In this document: piece by piece, positions 39,585 to 52,095 of the stretch
Numbering within the stretch: position 1 is the first letter of the stretch
Layout: each line of letters opens with the position of its first letter
NCBI RefSeq assembly: GCF_019649055.1
Contig: NW_026570242.1
Span: forward strand, 372,001 to 436,000
Length of the DNA stretch: 64,000 nt
Direction of reading: 5' to 3'
From: Paramacrobiotus metropolitanus
Lineage: Eukaryota; Tardigrada; Eutardigrada; Parachela; Macrobiotidae
Notes under the pieces: model-generated
What the model saw: only the letters and a program-made list of their open reading frames with translations
The model's database searches: none
What the model was told of the DNA's origin: nothing
Program-made: the position numbers and the translations under genes

Positions 39585-41877
39585 ATGTCTAACTACGGAA
39601 CCGTGGAAGTACGCATTCCTATTCTGCAGCGCGGTGAAAGCGTGATTGACCAGTATGGACAGCGCAGCCAGTTTGACGATGAGATGCGCAAGATGGAAGC
39701 GGAAATGCAGAAGTTGACCGGCGAAATTTCCGAAGGGAACAAGCGCATTGCCTCGCGCGTCATCCAGACCACCAAGACCACCACTACCCGGACCAGCAGC
39801 GGTACCGGCTTCGATAACCAGAACCAACAGTTCGCCATCCAACCGCAGCCAATTCAGCAACAGGGCGGCAATGTTCAGTCGCACACCAGTCAAACGCATC
39901 AGACTTTCACCTCTGGTGGTACGCAATTTGACCAGCCGCAGGATTTCAATACACAAGGTAAAACACGAAGTAAAATACTTCTTCACATATATTTGATATT
40001 TATAAAGCGCTTCACATGTCAGCACCACGTCCGTTTTCCACGTATTCAGTTTTTGGCAACTTTTCATTTACAATTTATGCGTTAATTCGCAAGAAAGATT
40101 TTTATATATAGTTGAATAGAAGCATATTTTCCGTCGAAAATTGTAAAAGTATAGTCCTCTACAAGACTACAGTTACTACTGCTGCCTTGCATAAAATTTT
40201 TGTTCGCGCTTGTCGAATAATTACACTGTTACACAGCATAAGAGCATGTAGCTGCATTGTACAAATAGTTTTGTAGCATAAATTTCAATGATTAAGAACG
40301 TCAACAAATGGAACAGTTTGATATCAGGAATAGTGGTGGTAAAATGCAGCTACTTATAATAATTTTTTCGCCCGGCTCTGATCATGGCGTTCACTGCCAC
40401 CGCGGCCGCCGTTTGACGTCATGTCCTTGGAGCTGACACAATGTCGCGGCGGAAATGGTAAAAACTTTATTACAAGGCAGATGATTTTCAGTGTATAGTC
40501 TACGGATAAATTTATTTATCCGAGAGCTTCCAGCAGCTGGTATCCATTTCCATCTGGAATGGTTTAGACGGGTTGCCAAAAATATCATCTATTAATTAGC
40601 AGGCGGCAAACAACTGCCAGTTCATTGATCGGCTTTAAAGCATCAGAACTATTTCCCTTTACTGGCTGCGTTAGTAATTGGCGCCTTGGAGAGAAACTAC
40701 CCGGTCGAAGCAGACCGTTTTATTTCCTGTGTCCGTTTGCTCCAGTGTAATCGCAATCCATTAAAGAATCACAAAACTCATCTGCATCCGTTATAGGCTT
40801 GTTGGCCAACGTTCGTACATCATTGCAGCCAGAGTTTGGTAAAAATACTTTGAAACTTTTCGAAGTACTGTACTCGTTCAAACTTTTTGAAATTACTTTA
40901 TTCACGAAACAGCTTTCGAAGATCTTTCTTAGATGCAATCCCGGCAAGCAATGTGTACTCGAAACAGTAAAAATGTATAAGTACAGTACTTACTCGTACT
41001 TACTGGAGTAATATAAGCGGTTAACATTAAGTGACATACTTTTTTAATAATTTTTAATCGGAGCGGTTCATTCTATATTCTAAGTACGTAATCAGTTAAA
41101 TTCCCCCCGTATAATTAATTTTGCTCCATACTTTCAGGCGCTAACGTTATTGAATCTCGTCGCACTGTGACCACTCACAAGACGGTAACCCATTCAGGCA
41201 GTGGCCAGAATCTGCTGCAGAATGTCAACCAGCCGCCACAACCACAGGCCGTGCAATGGGCATCGCCAGCCGGCAGCAATGTGCAGGAGAGCCGCTCCCA
41301 TCACACCACGACAAGCACCTCCCACACCGGTGGCCAGCAGCAATTCCAAACCCAGCCGCAACCCATCCAGTGGGGCGCTCCAGCCGGTAGCCAGCAGTCC
41401 AACGCTCAAGAAACACGCTCTTTTCATAGCAGCACGACAACCAGCCACACCGGCCAGCAGCAGCATCACCAGCAGCAGAACCAGAACACCGGCCAAATGG
41501 TGCAGTTTGATCAGCAGAACAACCAGGAACTGCAGTCATGGCTGAGCAATCTCAACAGTCCTCTTATCTCCAATCATCAGGATATCTCGGGACAGGATGG
41601 CAAGTGCTTGAAGCTGCGATTCGATGTCAGTCAGTACCGACCGGATGAGGTCAGCGTTAAGATGGTGGACGGGAAGCTGCGCATCCATGCCAAACATGAG
41701 GAGAAAACCGAAAACAAATCCTCGTACCGGGAGTTCAATAAGGAGTTCTCCTTGCCTATCGGTACCAACCCGGAACTGATTAAATCGTCGCTGTCGAAAG
41801 ACGGTATCTTGACGGTGGAGGCGCCTTTCCCCGGACAACTGACGGGACAGCAGTACCTGCCTCTGACCAACTACTAA
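39585..41877 (+). CDS. Small heat-shock protein (alpha-crystallin/HSP20) with long Gln/Thr/His-rich N-terminal repeats, two exons
   Basis: Exon 1 (39585-39957, phase 1) and exon 2 (41138-41877) give about 370 residues, roughly twice the usual size. The alpha-crystallin domain lies near residues 270-355, with LKLRFDVSQYRPDEVSVKM, DGKLRIHAKHEE, YREFNKEFSLP and the C-terminal beta strand DGILTVEAPFP. The preceding 200 residues are low-complexity and rich in Gln, Thr, Ser and His, including two copies of a repeat of about 40 residues (QWASPAGSN...TSHTGGQQQ and QWGAPAGSQ...TSHTGQQQ). Small HSPs are ATP-independent holdases that form oligomers. The long disordered N-terminus could drive condensation or client capture under stress, which is an inference. 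A poly(A) signal follows at 41910. Confidence 0.93.
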
Positions 41878-42994: not shown

Positions 42995-45900
42995 ATGCCA
43001 TTGTGCACGTTCTACACGTTTGCAGTACTGATCATGATGGTACGTTCTGTGTTTGCCCCAGTGCCCAGTTTTGATACTGGAGAGATGATTCTGACGCCCG
43101 ACGAATACGAGGACACTCTGTCGGCCGTGGAGACCTTTTGGTCCCATCCAACATATCTGGCCCATCCTCCCGATGTGACGGTCACATCCAATGAAAATTC
43201 AAACGTTTCGATTATTGGTAATGGTGTAGAAGAGATGCGGCCATTAGTATACAAATGGATAATGGAATACGCAGCGTACCGAGAACCGTACATCGCAGTG
43301 GACACAAATGGTAGTGTCTACTTGGGTAACCTGCAGTTAGCACAAATTCCAAATGCTTCAGAAGCTTTGACCGGGCAATATTCCAACGGTACTCCTGTTA
43401 ACAATGATTTTGCCAAACGGTTTACCGGCGAAAGAAACTCTTTTCTGGATTATCTGATTTCACCACAAATTTTCGGCGACAACGATATGCTGCTGCATCT
43501 GCCGTTAATGGCTTCCGGAGTTTTCGTTGCCTATTATCTTCCGCAAATTAACAGTTCTACACCACTGTGTCTCACTAAAGAACAACTGGAGGGCATCTTA
43601 AATGGAACTATTACTTACTGGACTGACCAGAGGTTGTGTTCTCCCGAAAACGAATTCTGGTGTGCCAATGAAACCCTGCTAAACGGAGACTCGCCTATAC
43701 AAATCTGTACGAACCTTTAACGAAATTGGTCAAAACTTTAGCACTCTATAGCCCCATTCACCCAGTACGCAAAACCACTATTCCATTAATCCTGGATACA
43801 TTAATTATTTGTTGGTTTTAGCAAAAATGTTGGGTTTTCAGTTGTTCCAGGGTATGCATCTGTCGCCAACCTCGTACTGAGTTCGTATTTACTTGGGGAG
43901 AACTCGTCGTTTGGTTATGGATGGAAAAATGCATTTCCACAGTCCAATATCATAGAATCCCGATCGACGGTGGAAACAATGGGATCGTGCTTACAGGTGC
44001 AATACAGCTTGTGCATTGGGCAGTACTCTGATGTCCTCTCTACGGTGGTCACCACTGTAAGCCTAAGGAACAGTGCGGGATACTATGTTGGACTGTCGTC
44101 GCACTCGGTAAGAGGCTGTACGCACTGGAACCAAAATTACTAAACTTTCGAGTCAGTGCAATTCAACAGTTTTTTTTTTGAAACCTGCAGATAGAAAGCG
44201 TGACTACTGGGCATTTCAGCAGCGTGAACATCTCATCGTACCAAAAGGTCAACTACTCCATGTACATTGACCAGAATGGCAACGATTCCTATCCACTTGT
44301 CTACATGTATTACATGCTGATCAGACGCGGCTCGAAATTCATGGACAAACCAACAGATTGTGACCAAGCGGTTAATCTCCTACGATTCATCCGTTTTTTC
44401 TACAGCAGTGAAGAAGCGCGATCCAGTGCGGCTCGTCTGGGAGCGGTGTTCGTCCCAGGAACAGCGTACGCCGCTGTACGCAATCAGATGAAGCGCATAC
44501 GCTGCGGCAACACCAATAACATCGTCTGGATGTTGTTAAAAGATCAAATCCAAAATGATTTAGCTTCTCAAGTGGACACCCTCACCGAAGCTCTGTTATC
44601 GCTCTTGTCCATACCAAGTCTGATTTTAGTGGCGTACAGTATTTGGAGGTTTGCCAGATTTGTAAGCATCCTTCAACGCGTTCGAGATGGCGTGTATAAG
44701 GTGCCGAGCGCAGCTATTTTCCTCGTGAGCAGACAACATACGTTGACGGATCGGTTTAAAGGAGTGGTCGCATCCAGAAGGGTAGTCGATTATTACACCC
44801 CGAAGTCTTATGTGCATACTATGTATTTTGGACGATGGAAAGCTTATCAAGTTATGCTGCGGCCGTGTAGTATGAATATCCATCGCCTAAGCCAAGCAGT
44901 AAAAAGAGTGAGCTCAGTCCTCTCTAGCCAGACCTTATTTCGTGATACCTTAACCCTGATCAGATTTTTTGATTTTTAGAAGCTTGTCGAAATTATGGAG
45001 CTCTCCGGTCACCAAAGGATCGCAACCTTTTATGGACTGACCGAAGTGAAAAACGGCCGGTACTTTGTCTCTAATTTTTGTATGCTGAATGGCAACAGAC
45101 TAAGCCATGGAATAAATGCTACTACAGGTGTCCTTCATGTGATACTTTAGTGTTATTTGCATTATTTTTCCAGGTCCATACGGAGATCTTCGGTCAATTA
45201 TTATTGCTAAAGAGTACACGTTTTCGTTAAATATGAAGTATTCTCTGGCGGGAGATATCGCCGATGGCATGGAGTTTCTCCATTATAATGGAATCCTTCA
45301 TGGAAATTTGCGCAGCTGCGCCATTTATATCGAAGCTAACTTCAGTGCAAAAGTTGGAGATTGGTAAACTAGTAACTGAATGCTTTTCGTGAACTTGTTT
45401 GAAACGTGTAAGTATGTGCACTTCAGGGAATACAATACACTGCACCGCTTGCAAGGAACATATTTTCCTCAAGAAATTCGACTGGCGCAAACTTTGACCT
45501 TATTTGAGCAGACGGCTTTCTATCCGTGGCTATACTGGACCGCCCCTGAAGTGCTACAGTGTGGGATGCTCGGCACTGCTGTTGTGCTAACAAAAGCACA
45601 AGATGTGTACAGGTTCCGTTCGAAATAGCGTATGGTAGCGTACTATGTGTTACTTGCTACTTGTAACAATTAAGCAGTGAGCATTTTTCCCCGTGCTTAA
45701 CCTTCCCCAGCATTCAGCATTATAGGCCATAACACAGCGTACCGTTGATTCACTCGTATCGATACGAAAAGCATTGATTTTAACAATAACAATTTACGTG
45801 CTACTGAACCGTTGCAGTACTTGGCAAACCGAACGCTAAACAAAGGTTTTGCTTTAGTTTTGGGATAATACTGGGTGAAATTTTTGGTGAGGAAGCCGCA

Positions 45901-48543
45901 TTTCAACGATATCAAGACGGTCCATACAACTTCACCCCCACGGAAATCATAACAAAGATATTAAGTGGTAACTTACGACCCCGCTTGTCAACTGGAAACG
46001 AAGTGCCGACGTCCATGACGCGCTTGATGAATTTCTGCTGGGCTTTTGCACCGCGTGACAGGCCACATTTCCGCAGCATCACAAGAGTACTTCGACTAGT
46101 TGTGTCACCCCGAAAACCAATTTCGGATCTTGTGGTAATCGAAAGTCAGCTGCTCGCCGACAAGCTGAAAAAAAAGGCAAAGAGGATGGAACATCGTTAC
46201 GAGATGGTTTCGAAAAGTTTCCACAAGTACAGCCGGACACTGGTGCCCTTTCCCATATGGCGAAGAATTTATTTGGGTAACAACTGTGGACACGTTGGGT
46301 AAGACAGCATGCCCAATTTGTGTAATTTTAGGACATATGCGGCCTCCTTTGAACCGCTACGAGGACGCCGTAGTACTCCGGTGTTCGCTAGCAAATTACG
46401 ATGCCATCATTGCGACAAGCGATCCACAGATTGCAATGGACACTATTAATCTTCTGCAGCGCGTGTTTGAAGAATTAGTAGAAAAGAACGGTCGGATATA
46501 TCGCATGTATCAAGATGGAGCGGCGGTAGTGGCCGTAGGTGGTGCGCCTTTCGGTTTGGAATTGGATCCCGTGCACAGCATCGCACAGACCGCTTTGGAT
46601 TACCTTGTCTGGGCTAACAACTCTCGAGCACCGTCGCAACCGGCATTGAAAATTCGAATGGGCATCCATTCGGGGTCGGTAGCAGCGGGATGTGTGGACT
46701 ACGCTGCGGCCCATTATGTTCTATTTGGAGAACTGATGAAGATTGCCTTTAATATCGAGCGGACATCCGAACCGTATCGCGTCCTGATATCCGAAGATTT
46801 CAATGACAAATTACGGCAGCGTAAGTCTGACATAAATACTTGCATGAACGACGTAATACTGGCAAGCGCTATTTACATAGATATATTTTCTTAGTGGCAA
46901 AAGTTTACGTGAAATATAAAGTCGTCGAATCCAGCCGGACCGTGCGAGGTTACGACAAGAAAACATTCTGGTTGATTGGCTCGAATGTTTATGATCAACA
47001 ATATCTATTGGACGATATTCTGTACGGCAAAGACGAGCTGGACATTGACAGCGACGAGCACATCGCGTATGGTTCGGAACTCGGCATTATTACTGATTGC
47101 CATGGCGTTGCCGTATGCAAACCCGACAGCCATCACTATGCGCATCGTGGTGAACCAGCAGTACTGGATTCGGCAGCAGTTATTCGAGGGCTGAAAAAAC
47201 GAAAAGCAGCGGCAATGAAAATGCCCCCACCCCATGTTCTAAAGGCCCAGATACTAGATCACCCTTCGCAAAAGAAGCACCGGAAGAAAGCTAAACATGA
47301 TCCTCTAGAAGTTGAGTCTGTGAAAGTACAGCCCGTTTCTCGAATTCCATTTAGTACTTATGATGAGGTGGAACAAGTTACGGCTACAGAAAGAGGTGTC
47401 TCTCCCGCGGATGTGCTCGTCGGGATACATCATGGTAGTAAGTTTACGGAGAGTTTCATTACTGTCGCTGCAATATGTATGATAAAGCGAGTAGTGAGTA
47501 TTAGTACTGTACCGCATTTGTTTTGTAGCTCAAATTCAGGGTGAGCATGACCCTGGTCACGATTTAACAAGATTTACCGAATTCAGTGCTACCACAAATC
47601 AAGCATATTTGATCCCATGTGACGGGGAATCTGCCATTGAAACTCGAACCTCGGATTTGGTACCGTGTCCGTCACTTTTTCAAGAATCAGCAGTATATTC
47701 CGAAGGTGAAGTGCGTTGGCCAATGAGGATTGATGTCTTGCACTCTCCACCGTACGGATCGTTGTTTGGCGCGATAAACATGAATTCTGCAGCAAACCAA
47801 CTGGAAAATATTCCAGATCGACCTTATACGGTCAAAAGTGAGCAACCTGTTGAAAGAGCCACGAATATAAAAGCGCGAACTGACGACCAGCAGCTGGTTG
47901 TTGAAAAGATAAGAAACGACGGGCTACTTGAAATTCGTCCAGAGAAAATGGAAGATTACAGTCGTGACCTTGCTGAGGGAACAGCAGCAGATCCGAAACA
48001 AGACACGGAACACGTTCTACTAGCTAGCAGTAGTAGCCGTGCCATATCTGTGTATGCTGATTTGCCAAGTATTCACAGTGATATTGGTAAGGTCACTCAA
48101 CAAGGTGTTTCAATGTTTATAATTTTTGTAATGGCGAGACAGGCCTTTTTACATTAGTACGGAAGTGCTTATTGAGATTAATAATTGCAGCTACGTACGG
48201 ACTGATTCCTCCAGTTCGTGTCGGCATTTCCCACCATGAATCTACGAGCTGGTCTTCGGCGCAGCAAGACCAAGAGAACGCTGATGCAGCGTTTACCACT
48301 TCCGACGATGCCCTCCCTCTACATATTGAACAAAGTGAAATCAAAGCCGATGAGGAGCCACTGCAAATGCTGTTGTCGGTCAATGCACCGTTCCAGCCGG
48401 ATGAGGATTTGATTGGTTTCAGTTCTGCTCAAACCAATCGCAACAATCCTCTACTAAGTCTCAATGAAAGTTCAGGTCACCAGGTGGAAAATTCGCAGTC
48501 CCACTCGGATGCTACCGGAAAACAAGATCATGCAGAGAACTGA
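42995..48543 (+). CDS. Receptor guanylate cyclase-like protein with PstS-like ectodomain, kinase-homology domain and degenerate cyclase domain; eleven exons
   Basis: Exons 42995-43706, 43842-44107, 44191-44907, 44980-45127, 45174-45363, 45427-45612, 45858-46276, 46332-46820, 46895-47437, 47529-48086 and 48191-48543 close in phase (about 1526 residues). Order: signal peptide; ectodomain resembling bacterial PstS phosphate-binding proteins (LPLMASGVFVAYYLPQIN, LEGILNGTITYWTDQRL, FVPGYASVANLVLSSYL, SYPLVYMYYMLI); one transmembrane helix (LLSLLSIPSLILVAYSIW); kinase-homology domain (GDIADGMEFLHYNGILHGNL); linker helix; class III cyclase fold (IRMGIHSGSVAAG, HYVLFGELMKIAFNIER); RGYDKKTFWLIG; then a polar tail of about 450 residues. 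Both metal-binding Asp and the catalytic Asn/Arg positions are substituted, so cGMP synthesis is unlikely unless it pairs with an active partner. The PstS-like ectodomain is not the usual ANF-receptor type of animal receptor cyclases. Confidence 0.88.
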
Positions 48544-49101: not shown

Positions 49102-52095
49102 CTAAGGTAATTCCAGTATTCCCAGGGCTCTGTACAAATGGTATTCGTCAAACATACGATCCCACCATGGCGTCGATTTTAGTCTCTTGATCTCCGAAGG
49201 CGGCAAGCTTTTAATGTCACGTGCGGGTACGCGAGGAGCCGGAGCTGCTGGTTGCTTTGGAGGAAGTGCTGGAGACTTGAGAACCGATGGTGGGAGTTTT
49301 CCTGGTGGTGGCATTTTGTTTTGCGTTTTCGGGCTCGGTCTGTTCACAGGAGCGGATATTTTCGGCGGAGGCGGCCTTCCGCTTGGAGGTGGTGGTGCAC
49401 GGGGTGGTGGTGGAGGAGGCCCTCTTGGAGGTGGGGGCATTCCCCTAGGTGGCGGCGGTCCTCTAGGAGGCGGAGGCATGTTTCTTGGCACTGGACCAGG
49501 CCCTCGAGGCCGGGCAGCCGGGCCTCTTGGTGGCAGCGGGGGCCCTCTTAACGGTGGTGGTGGACCTCTTGGCGGTGGACCTCTTAGGGGCTGTCCTCTT
49601 GGGGGTGGCCCTCGGGGAGGAGGAGGTCTGCCGCCAGGCGGAGCGCCACGCCCTGGTGGTGGCCCTCGGGGTGGCGGTCCACGCGGGCCAGGGGGCCCTC
49701 TCTGACCGGGGCCGCCTGGCGGAGGTCTTCCCGGCGGACCACGGGGTGCGCCAGGCTGTGGTCGCCCTGGTGGGCCAGGGCGTTGCGGGGGTCCTCCTGG
49801 CCCAGGCTGTCTGGGTGGAGGGCCACGAAATTGCGGTGGTCCTCGTGGTGGCGGTCCCCGCCCTGGTGGTGGACCCATTCCTGGCGGTGGCCCTTGTCCT
49901 GGAAATCCGCGTCCCGGTGGAGGCCCCCTGCCTGGAGGTGGTCCCCTGCCGGGCGGCGGCCCCATTCCAGGCGGTGGTCCTCTTCCTCTTTGAAAGCCTG
50001 GTGGACCGGGCTGAAATTGCATTTCTGATGCGGATTCTTCTGTGTCAAATTGGCTCTTGACCTCGGCTTCAGACGCAACTGGTTCGTCATCGTCGTCATC
50101 CATCTTCATGTCGGCAGACTGCTTAGCTTTGTTCTGAGAAACTTTCATAGAGAGCTTCGCCGAATCTGTTTTAGCCGCTACCGACTGTTTGTTATCTGTT
50201 TCATCGTTCTCCTCGATATCATGTTCGGTTCTGTGTCGTTTCGCAGCCCTTTTATCTCTGTTTCGGCGCATACGTTTTCGAGATTTCATTTCCGTTCGAT
50301 ACGCAGTCTCGCTAGTGTCGAGCTCTTTTTGCCTTTTTTCACCACTGGACTGTTTCTCTTGCTCTTGACCGGAAGCTTCAGCCCTGTACGGCTGCAGTCG
50401 CACCGGGTTTTGTGTTCTGTCCAGCTCAAGTTTGGCAGCTTGCCGCTGTTCTTGCCCTGTTTTTCGGTTGATTTTTTGTTTATATGCTCTGTCCTCATTC
50501 TTTACAGATGCCGCTTGTTCGTTCTCGTTGTAATCATCGTCGAATTCTGCCTTCGCTTTATCTTTCTTTCTGGCAGACTTGGCCTCAGTCTTAACAGTCT
50601 CTTTAATCTTGTTCTTCTTCGACAGCTTGGTCTTCTCCTTTCGGGACTGCGCATTTAGTTTGCCAGCTGCTTGTGCATTTTCGTTTTCGGTATCACGCCG
50701 TTTGCTCTCATCTTCATCATCATCTTCTGCATCCATCTGCTTTTCTGCCACGAAATCGGCGTTGGTTTCCTCCAGGAAGTCAGAAGTTGTTTCATGAGCC
50801 AGTTCAAAGTCATCGGCGTCGTTTTGTACAGAATCTTGTTTGTCAGCCTGCAAGGAAAATTAATTTTAAACAGCGTTCCACTTTAAAAAGTTTCCCAAAA
50901 CCAGCCAACCAACTGGAGGTTTTGCCCAAACAGCATGTCACACGAGCTGATGCAGTGTGTAATACACAAATTACGGACTCCAAAGGCGCCAGAGCGGCCT
51001 TCAAGCTAAGCCATACAATTATAGTGAATCTTCCGAGTTTTTAACTGTAATTCTAAAACAAATAGTTGGTTCGTTGAGATGGTTTTAGAATAATCAGTGT
51101 TTAGTAATCGTTATACGAGGTTTTGTTTGTTTTCTCATCTTTTCAGTAGGTGGTTCGCACGTCGCAAATTACAGACGGCAGCACAGGACAACTGAGACGA
51201 TGTCCGTAATATGCTGGAAACTCGCTGCCGTGTCACAGCCATAAGGTTGTGCGCGTAGTGACGTAGACATTGCCTAATACAACAAACCTACCGAATCAGC
51301 TGCTTTGTTGGAGCTGTCACTGTAATCGTCGTCGTCCAATCCCCAACTTGCGTCGTAAGCTGCTGTTCGTTTGGCCATGATGCCTTTGTTGCCTTTCGCT
51401 GTGTCGTCATCGTCATCATCCTCTTCGTCTAGCGATTCTTCATTCGACTCCTCTTTCGATTCTTCCTTTTGTTCAAAGTATGCCCTGCCTTCGGGCCGTC
51501 GATCCCATTTGGAAACATAAGCCTTCTTCGTGTCCAGTTCCGTCTTCTTAGTGTCTTTCTTTTTCTCTACTTTTTCGTTTTTATCATAATCGTCGTCATC
51601 GAATTTAACTTTGTCTTCAGCAATGCTAGCCATGTAATCCTCGTCCATTTCCTTTTTCGATTTCTTCGCCTCAGTCACGTCTTTTTTGTCACTGGCGTAG
51701 TCGTCGTCCTGGAATTCGGTTTTGACTTTTCTGGCGCTTTTCTCTTCGTAATCATCGTCGTCCATCTTGTAATCGTCATCGTCGAATATGACCTTTCTAC
51801 TCTTAAGGTCTTCTTCGTAGTCATCAAAGAGTTCCTGTTTACTTTTGCTTTCTTTAGCCACACTGTAGTCGTCATCATCTAAGACAACCATCTGTGATTC
51901 GTAGTCGTCGTCCTGAAATGCTGTATCGGCATCCATACGCGCGGCTCGCAGTTCGCGATTTTTGGCGCTGCGGGCAAACACATCTCCGACCAGCGTTCCC
52001 TCCAAGCCCATGTTATGAGGGAGTCCATCGTTGATGGAGATCTGGGCAGCAATTACAACAAGTAGTTCAACAAATCCAAATTTCACCATACGCAT
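49102..52095 (-). CDS. Secreted polyampholyte: DDDDY-repeat acidic part, charged middle, Pro/Gly/Arg-rich part; two exons
   Basis: Exon 1 is 51292-52095 and exon 2 is 49102-50847; the phase-0 junction (TCG/GTAGGT ... TTGCAG/GCT) gives about 849 residues. It starts with a signal peptide (VKFGFVELLVVIAAQISI). Residues 60-270 contain repeated DDDDY/DDDY units spaced by Lys-rich stretches. The middle is Lys/Glu/Arg-rich. Residues about 555-790 are dominated by PPPGRGPPPRGPP-type repeats. A short ordered-looking C-terminus (PSEIKRLKSTPWWDRMFDEY) closes it. I recognise no known family. Acidic repeats with Tyr suit calcium binding or Tyr sulphation, and the basic Pro-rich part could phase-separate with them. 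An extracellular matrix, mineral-associated or adhesive role is possible but unproven. Large open frames on the opposite strand are shadows of the repeats. Confidence 0.75.

Follow-up and report, generated by a model that had tools for sequence, protein, structure and literature searches.

A receptor-like gene occupies positions 42995-48543, forward strand, of a 64,000-nucleotide stretch of the genome of the tardigrade Paramacrobiotus metropolitanus (C22:372001-436000, the whole of which is referred to here as the window). An eleven-exon model over this interval gave an open frame of 1526 codons plus a stop, with ten GT-AG introns, phases that agree and no frame break. The splice sites were picked to make phase and frame fit, so this agreement is weak evidence on its own; the donor of intron 1 is weak, falling under the score for the splice-site listing, and alternative sites are present for introns 1, 9 and 10. 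Two hydrophobic stretches of the predicted protein exceed the threshold (residues 3-21 and 460-478), and Pfam matched, from N to C terminus, PBP_like_2, PK_Tyr_Ser-Thr and Guanylate_cyc. The order is that of a receptor guanylate cyclase: signal peptide, extracellular domain, single transmembrane helix, kinase homology domain and cyclase domain. The original prediction for this gene, a phase-consistent eleven-exon model with these signal, transmembrane, kinase homology and cyclase parts, therefore holds.

The ectodomain is homologous to PstS, the bacterial phosphate-binding protein. Residues 166-400 matched PBP_like_2 (PF12849; E-value 6.3e-13, 49.5 bits against a cut-off of 27), and the NCBIfam model of PstS, TIGR00975, matched residues 162-428 (3.4e-12). 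The latter is a single match, collinear across exons 1-3, which supports the two introns within the ectodomain. Exon 1 alone reached 7.9e-4 with PBP_like_2 (19.7 bits, under the cut-off). The ligand module of other animal receptor cyclases, ANF_receptor (PF01094), had no match in the window protein up to an E-value of 1, and 86 matches elsewhere in the genome. A profile was made from 20 PstS sequences, 15 taken from the 80 loci described below and five from plasmids and a phage (E-values assume 100,000 sequences). It scored the window ectodomain at 2.6e-13 and those of the paralogues L001, L005, L006, L012 and L013 at 4.2e-65, 2.5e-45, 4.2e-23, 3.8e-20 and 0.23, respectively; as a control, the six ectodomains were reversed and none matched. 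Compared profile to profile, the window, L006 and L012 ectodomains together matched the 20 PstS with a probability of 99.7 and an E-value of 1.8e-25. Used as a single sequence, the window ectodomain matched no solved structure up to an E-value of 1, and AlphaFold models of exon 1 only were poor (predicted local distance difference test score, pLDDT, of 47.7 with the 20 PstS rows and 40.7 alone). At the level of sequence comparison, then, the receptor-cyclase-like protein is confirmed to carry a PstS-type (type II periplasmic) ectodomain, the Pfam search proposed with the original prediction having been positive.

The intracellular part matched PK_Tyr_Ser-Thr (PF07714) at residues 555-817 (1.1e-21) and Guanylate_cyc (PF00211) at residues 887-1070 (7.4e-18). 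Eight cyclase positions were checked, which we take to be the two metal-binding Asp, the base-recognition Lys, Glu and Cys, the Asp of the FGD motif, and the catalytic Asn and Arg. All eight are kept in L001, five in L005, one in L006, none in the window protein and none of the four readable in L012. With 0/8 active-site positions the window cyclase is, by sequence, a pseudo-cyclase, and an active cyclase is not borne out for this gene. The genome as a whole holds a very large cyclase family, with at least 200 exon-level Guanylate_cyc matches (150 of 849 candidates scored).

The gene is not alone in the genome, which was searched over 169.8 Mb in 533 contigs. PBP_like_2 gave eight exon-level matches, representing four loci on contig C71, one on C4 and one on C39; at the four C71 loci and on C4 a cyclase match lies within 3 kb downstream on the same strand. 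Protein searches with the window protein, L001 and L006 added loci at C22:985-988 kb and C40:719 kb. The 16 exon-level matches to TIGR00975 all lie within the C71, C4, C39 and C22:985 kb loci. The ectodomain of the window gene itself, split over three exons, is unlisted in both of these exon-by-exon searches; such searches can miss members, and the locus count is therefore a lower bound. At least eight clear loci on four contigs, the window gene included, share a common domain order. L012 was counted as clear because its ectodomain matched TIGR00975 (3.7e-14) despite missing the PBP_like_2 cut-off (25.4 bits against 27). A ninth locus, on C40 (L013/L094), has a weak ectodomain: Pfam matched the kinase and cyclase pieces but nothing in the N-terminal piece, and the PstS profile score is the poor one given above. 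Pfam also confirmed the kinase and cyclase parts of L001, L005, L006, L012 and L013. The ectodomains of L006 and L012 are 26% and 23% identical to that of the window protein.

On C71 a neighbouring pair of PstS-cyclase genes occurs twice, about 80 kb apart (557000-571800, L001/L002, and 635500-649500, L003/L004), and L001 and L003 share 99.4% amino-acid identity over a 314-codon exon. Either this segment was duplicated recently and copies of it are decaying, or the repetition stems from duplicate haplotypes or errors of assembly. An apparent lack of the first exon in L002 and L004 was ruled out, as L095 and L096 carry first exons with GGSTMPFDVYQ farther upstream.

The least changed member is L001 (C71:557000-563500, reverse strand), which splices to 1034 residues without a break. 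Pfam matched Guanylate_cyc (7.2e-63), PK_Tyr_Ser-Thr (2.5e-23) and PBP_like_2 (4.6e-23), and TIGR00975 matched at 2.1e-52. Its fourth exon (residues 211-542), a single open frame, encodes the C-terminal half of the PstS domain, the transmembrane helix (residues 401-419) and the start of the kinase match (residue 514), so that the fusion is established at the DNA level without splice prediction. Searched as a single sequence against solved structures, L001 matched 21 sequences up to an E-value of 0.01, and 20 of these are phosphate-binding proteins; the other is one unrelated methyltransferase (0.0084). The leading match was 2z22 (3.2e-31), and 1ixh matched residues 36-364 at 6e-29. These entries are given as Yersinia pestis PstS and E. 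coli PstS, respectively, in the available text of PMC5439949. Identity of L001 to five PstS was 28-33%.

The phosphate site was read from a MAFFT alignment of the six ectodomains with 85 PstS, in which the divergent N-terminal lobes are aligned with uncertainty. The phosphate ligands of E. coli PstS were presumed to be T10, F11, S38, D56, R135, S139, G140 and T141. At these positions L001 has T L S D R S G T (7/8), L005 S M G D R A G T (4/8), L006 Q M N D I T G L (2/8), L012 K L T R R Y L S (1/8) and L013 H V G R R T T V (1/8); the open frames of L002 and L004 have motifs like those of L001. The window protein has E E G G P S V A and keeps S139 as its one ligand of eight, which speaks against the oxyanion proposed as its ligand in the original prediction. 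For PhoX the ligands listed are Ser34, Ser62, Asp80, Arg159, Gly164, Thr165 and Asn201, and the Asp in E. coli PstS is said to discriminate phosphate from other oxyanions (both from the available text of PMC5439949). Adding 24 to the numbers of T10, S38, D56, R135, G140, T141 and Asn177 gives those of the PhoX list, in which residue 34 is Ser in place of Thr. Conservation of Gly37-Ser38 among the 80 PstS arises by construction, because the search pattern held that region. L005 (C4:363800-369800; open frame of 1138 residues) is intermediate in both the phosphate and the cyclase site, which suggests, from these residues, stepwise loss within the family. The original prediction overlooked this family, in whose least changed members the phosphate site is nearly complete by alignment; in L001 the cyclase site is complete as well. 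Together with the PstS match of L001 and the fusion within one of its exons, these sites suggest a direct extracellular phosphate-to-cyclic GMP (cGMP) receptor in an animal.

Constraint was gauged from the proportions of differing silent sites (pS) and of differing amino-acid-changing sites (pN). Three exons of L001 and L002 gave pS of 0.75, 0.77 and 0.80 with pN of 0.15, 0.08 and 0.16; five comparisons of the window gene with L012 gave pS of 0.74 to 0.96 and pN of 0.24 to 0.53, and window exon 3 against L006 gave 0.82 and 0.51. Because silent sites are saturated, these values show only that conservation is higher at the amino-acid level than at silent sites. N-glycosylation sequons in the ectodomains outnumber those of shuffled sequences in the window protein (11 against 5.1; 8 of 1000 shuffles reached the count), L001 (9 against 3.6; 5 of 1000) and L005 (13 against 3.8; 0 of 1000). 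The cytoplasmic parts are not enriched (window 4 against 2.5, with 230 of 1000 shuffles as high; L001 0 against 3.7; L005 2 against 3.6), and the 80 bacterial PstS have 0.42 sequons per 100 residues. Enrichment confined to the ectodomains is as expected of an animal secretory-pathway protein.

Table 1. Features of the PstS-type receptor-cyclase-like gene, in window positions
Feature	Position	Strand	Basis
Signal peptide (residues 1-21)	42995..43057	+	Hydrophobic stretch, residues 3-21
Exon 1: signal peptide and N-terminal half of PstS-type ectodomain	42995..43706	+	Open frame, phase 1 end
PstS/PBP_like_2 domain (residues 162-428), split by introns 1 and 2	43478..44496	+	TIGR00975, PF12849
Exon 2: middle of PstS-type ectodomain	43842..44107	+	Within PBP_like_2 and TIGR00975 matches
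Exon 3: C-terminal part of ectodomain, transmembrane helix, juxtamembrane region, start of kinase homology domain	44191..44907	+	Single open frame
Transmembrane helix (residues 460-478)	44590..44646	+	Mean hydropathy 1.95
Kinase homology domain (residues 555-817), exons 3-7	44875..46089	+	PF07714, 1.1e-21
Exon 4	44980..45127	+	Gene model
Exon 5; 59% identical to paralogue C22:987422-987613	45174..45363	+	Gene model, protein search
Exon 6	45427..45612	+	Gene model
Exon 7	45858..46276	+	Gene model
Exon 8: most of cyclase domain, active-site residues replaced	46332..46820	+	PF00211 match
Exon 9: end of cyclase domain (to about 46977) and start of C-terminal tail	46895..47437	+	Gene model, Pfam
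Exon 10: C-terminal tail	47529..48086	+	Gene model
Exon 11: C-terminal tail and stop	48191..48543	+	Gene model

The C-terminal tail of 456 residues (46978-48540) had no Pfam match up to an E-value of 1; the paralogue at C22:985 kb likewise has a long charged open frame at the tail position. The gene is flanked upstream by an open frame for a small-heat-shock-like protein, as judged by eye (41119-41877, forward strand), and downstream by a proline-rich low-complexity open frame (49102-50859, reverse strand).

The origin of the ectodomain was addressed with a quick maximum-likelihood tree of 91 rows, comprising the six ectodomains, five plasmid or phage PstS and 80 further PstS. These 80 are the best of at least 587 relatives found with alignment A2 among at least 596 contig stretches; an earlier contig scan with L001 alone had found no relative. 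The six animal ectodomains fall on one side of a branch with a Shimodaira-Hasegawa-like approximate likelihood ratio test (SH-aLRT) value of 93, below the threshold of 95. Branches are very long (up to 8.3) and may attract each other, and no bacterial donor group was resolved in this tree. One capture is plausible from these sequences, and the ectodomain may alternatively have an older eukaryotic origin.

Homology, architecture, family and residue loss can be read from the sequences themselves. Our reading, held with some confidence, is that the window gene encodes a divergent and probably catalytically dead receptor guanylate cyclase with a PstS-homologous ectodomain, a pseudo-receptor in a family whose C71 members would link phosphate to cGMP. 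PstS traps phosphate by closing its two lobes around it, and receptor cyclases work as dimers whose cyclase is under the control of the ectodomain. In the C71 members the PstS domain would probably close on extracellular phosphate like a Venus flytrap, and the closure signal would pass through one transmembrane helix, the kinase homology domain and a linker helix to change the activity of the cyclase dimer, so that extracellular phosphate would set intracellular cGMP. The window protein keeps, by sequence, the fold family and the architecture with neither the phosphate nor the cyclase site. Most likely it is a pseudo-receptor, which might for instance pair with active cyclases without catalysing anything itself, or use its kinase homology domain and 456-residue tail as a scaffold, and which may respond to some other ligand. 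We infer phosphate binding by the C71 members, dimer coupling and the pseudo-receptor role. More tentatively, a bacterial phosphate-binding protein may have been captured by an animal lineage and fused to a receptor cyclase to give, in the C71 genes, a direct sensor of extracellular phosphate with cGMP as its output, followed by a radiation in which a subgroup with the window gene among its members lost both sites and became regulatory pseudo-receptors; this history we consider quite possible, though short of probable.

Several observations weigh against this interpretation. The curated cut-off of TIGR00975 (205 bits) was reached neither by the window protein (46) nor by L001 (178), the best of five ectodomains, and exon 3 alone gave no PBP_like_2 match, just a sub-threshold one to Pombe_5TM in Pfam. 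The counterpart of Phe11 in L001 is Leu. At the position of Asn177 (PhoX Asn201), 79 of the 80 PstS have Asn, but L001 has Gly and the window protein Thr; the Gly counts against an unchanged phosphate site in L001. Frame breaks are present in L002, L003 and L004 in the assembly, leaving L001 as the one intact copy of the four on C71, and the partner role suggested for the window protein is drawn by analogy.

The window protein could instead be an active receptor for a non-phosphate ligand in a remodelled pocket, signalling without cGMP through its kinase homology domain or tail. Its unbroken 1526-codon frame and an ectodomain that has kept its homology while ligand residues were replaced are in keeping with this, as are L006 and L012, whose similar losses in both sites indicate that the subgroup persisted. 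However, no conserved new ligand site can be demonstrated, and the L006 and L012 ectodomains are distant from that of the window protein; we think this explanation unlikely. Decay of the gene, as an expressed or silent receptor-cyclase relic under weak or no constraint, would account for the loss of both functional sites, and three of the four C71 relatives do have frame breaks; yet eleven exons with GT-AG sites form an uninterrupted 4.58 kb frame, and exon 5 shares 59% identity with the paralogue at C22:987 kb, at a pS of 0.82 and a pN of 0.24, which makes decay rather improbable.

That the gene encodes a functional receptor cyclase, with an oxyanion or small metabolite as ligand and cGMP as product, would suit the domain order and the family matches, but is very improbable for a protein keeping 0/8 cyclase and 1/8 phosphate-ligand positions. 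Scarcely credible is an artefact, whether from contaminating bacteria, a chimeric contig or the mistaken joining of neighbouring genes. The weak donor at intron 1 is in its favour; against it stand the eight clear loci with a common domain order on four contigs, the single exon of L001 that carries PstS part, transmembrane helix and start of the kinase homology domain, and the introns and sequon enrichment of the ectodomain. In addition, the transporter partner PstC had no match in the genome, although the same search was positive in 14/14 control genomes; a missing match is not proof of absence. The earlier argument against contamination, which had relied on the ectodomain introns, is thereby upheld, with at least seven further clear paralogues, the PstC result and the sequons added to it.

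Should the pseudo-receptor and phosphate-sensor reading be correct, a bacterial solute-binding protein serves as the ectodomain of an animal single-pass receptor. In mammals, how phosphate levels are sensed is stated as unknown in the available text of PMC10104895, and an animal receptor cyclase whose genome-encoded ectodomain is PstS-type, with most ligand residues retained in the least changed members, is a candidate extracellular phosphate receptor, from which a genetically encoded phosphate-to-cGMP switch might be developed. Among the open-access papers listed, none described an animal cyclase with an ectodomain of the PstS or PBP_like_2 kind, and none joined tardigrade and PstS; the available text of a comparative tardigrade genome paper mentions cyclase once, as adenylate cyclase (PMC5531438). 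Automatic annotation may already include this architecture without comment.

Among known systems, ionotropic glutamate receptors are animal receptors with a type II periplasmic-binding-protein fold, of a different family and with ion-channel output. DING proteins are PstS-like phosphate-binding proteins reported from animals (PMC7922408, PMC2225411), with an N-terminal DINGGG signature (PMC7922408); as of 2007, by the available text of PMC2225411, their genes were unidentified in eukaryotic genome or expressed sequence tag databases. In contrast, the present family has intron-containing genes in an assembled animal genome, and its PstS-type domain, fused to a receptor, has no DINGGG. With bacterial PstS it shares a collinear domain and, in L001, the sequence identity and 7/8 ligand positions given above; it differs in its fusion to a transmembrane helix and intracellular signalling domains, in lying below the curated TIGR00975 cut-off and in having no PstC match in the genome. 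Animal receptor guanylate cyclases with an ANF-receptor ectodomain have the same succession of signal peptide, extracellular ligand module, one transmembrane helix, kinase homology and cyclase, whereas the window ectodomain is PstS-type, not PF01094, and the checked catalytic residues are lost in this member.

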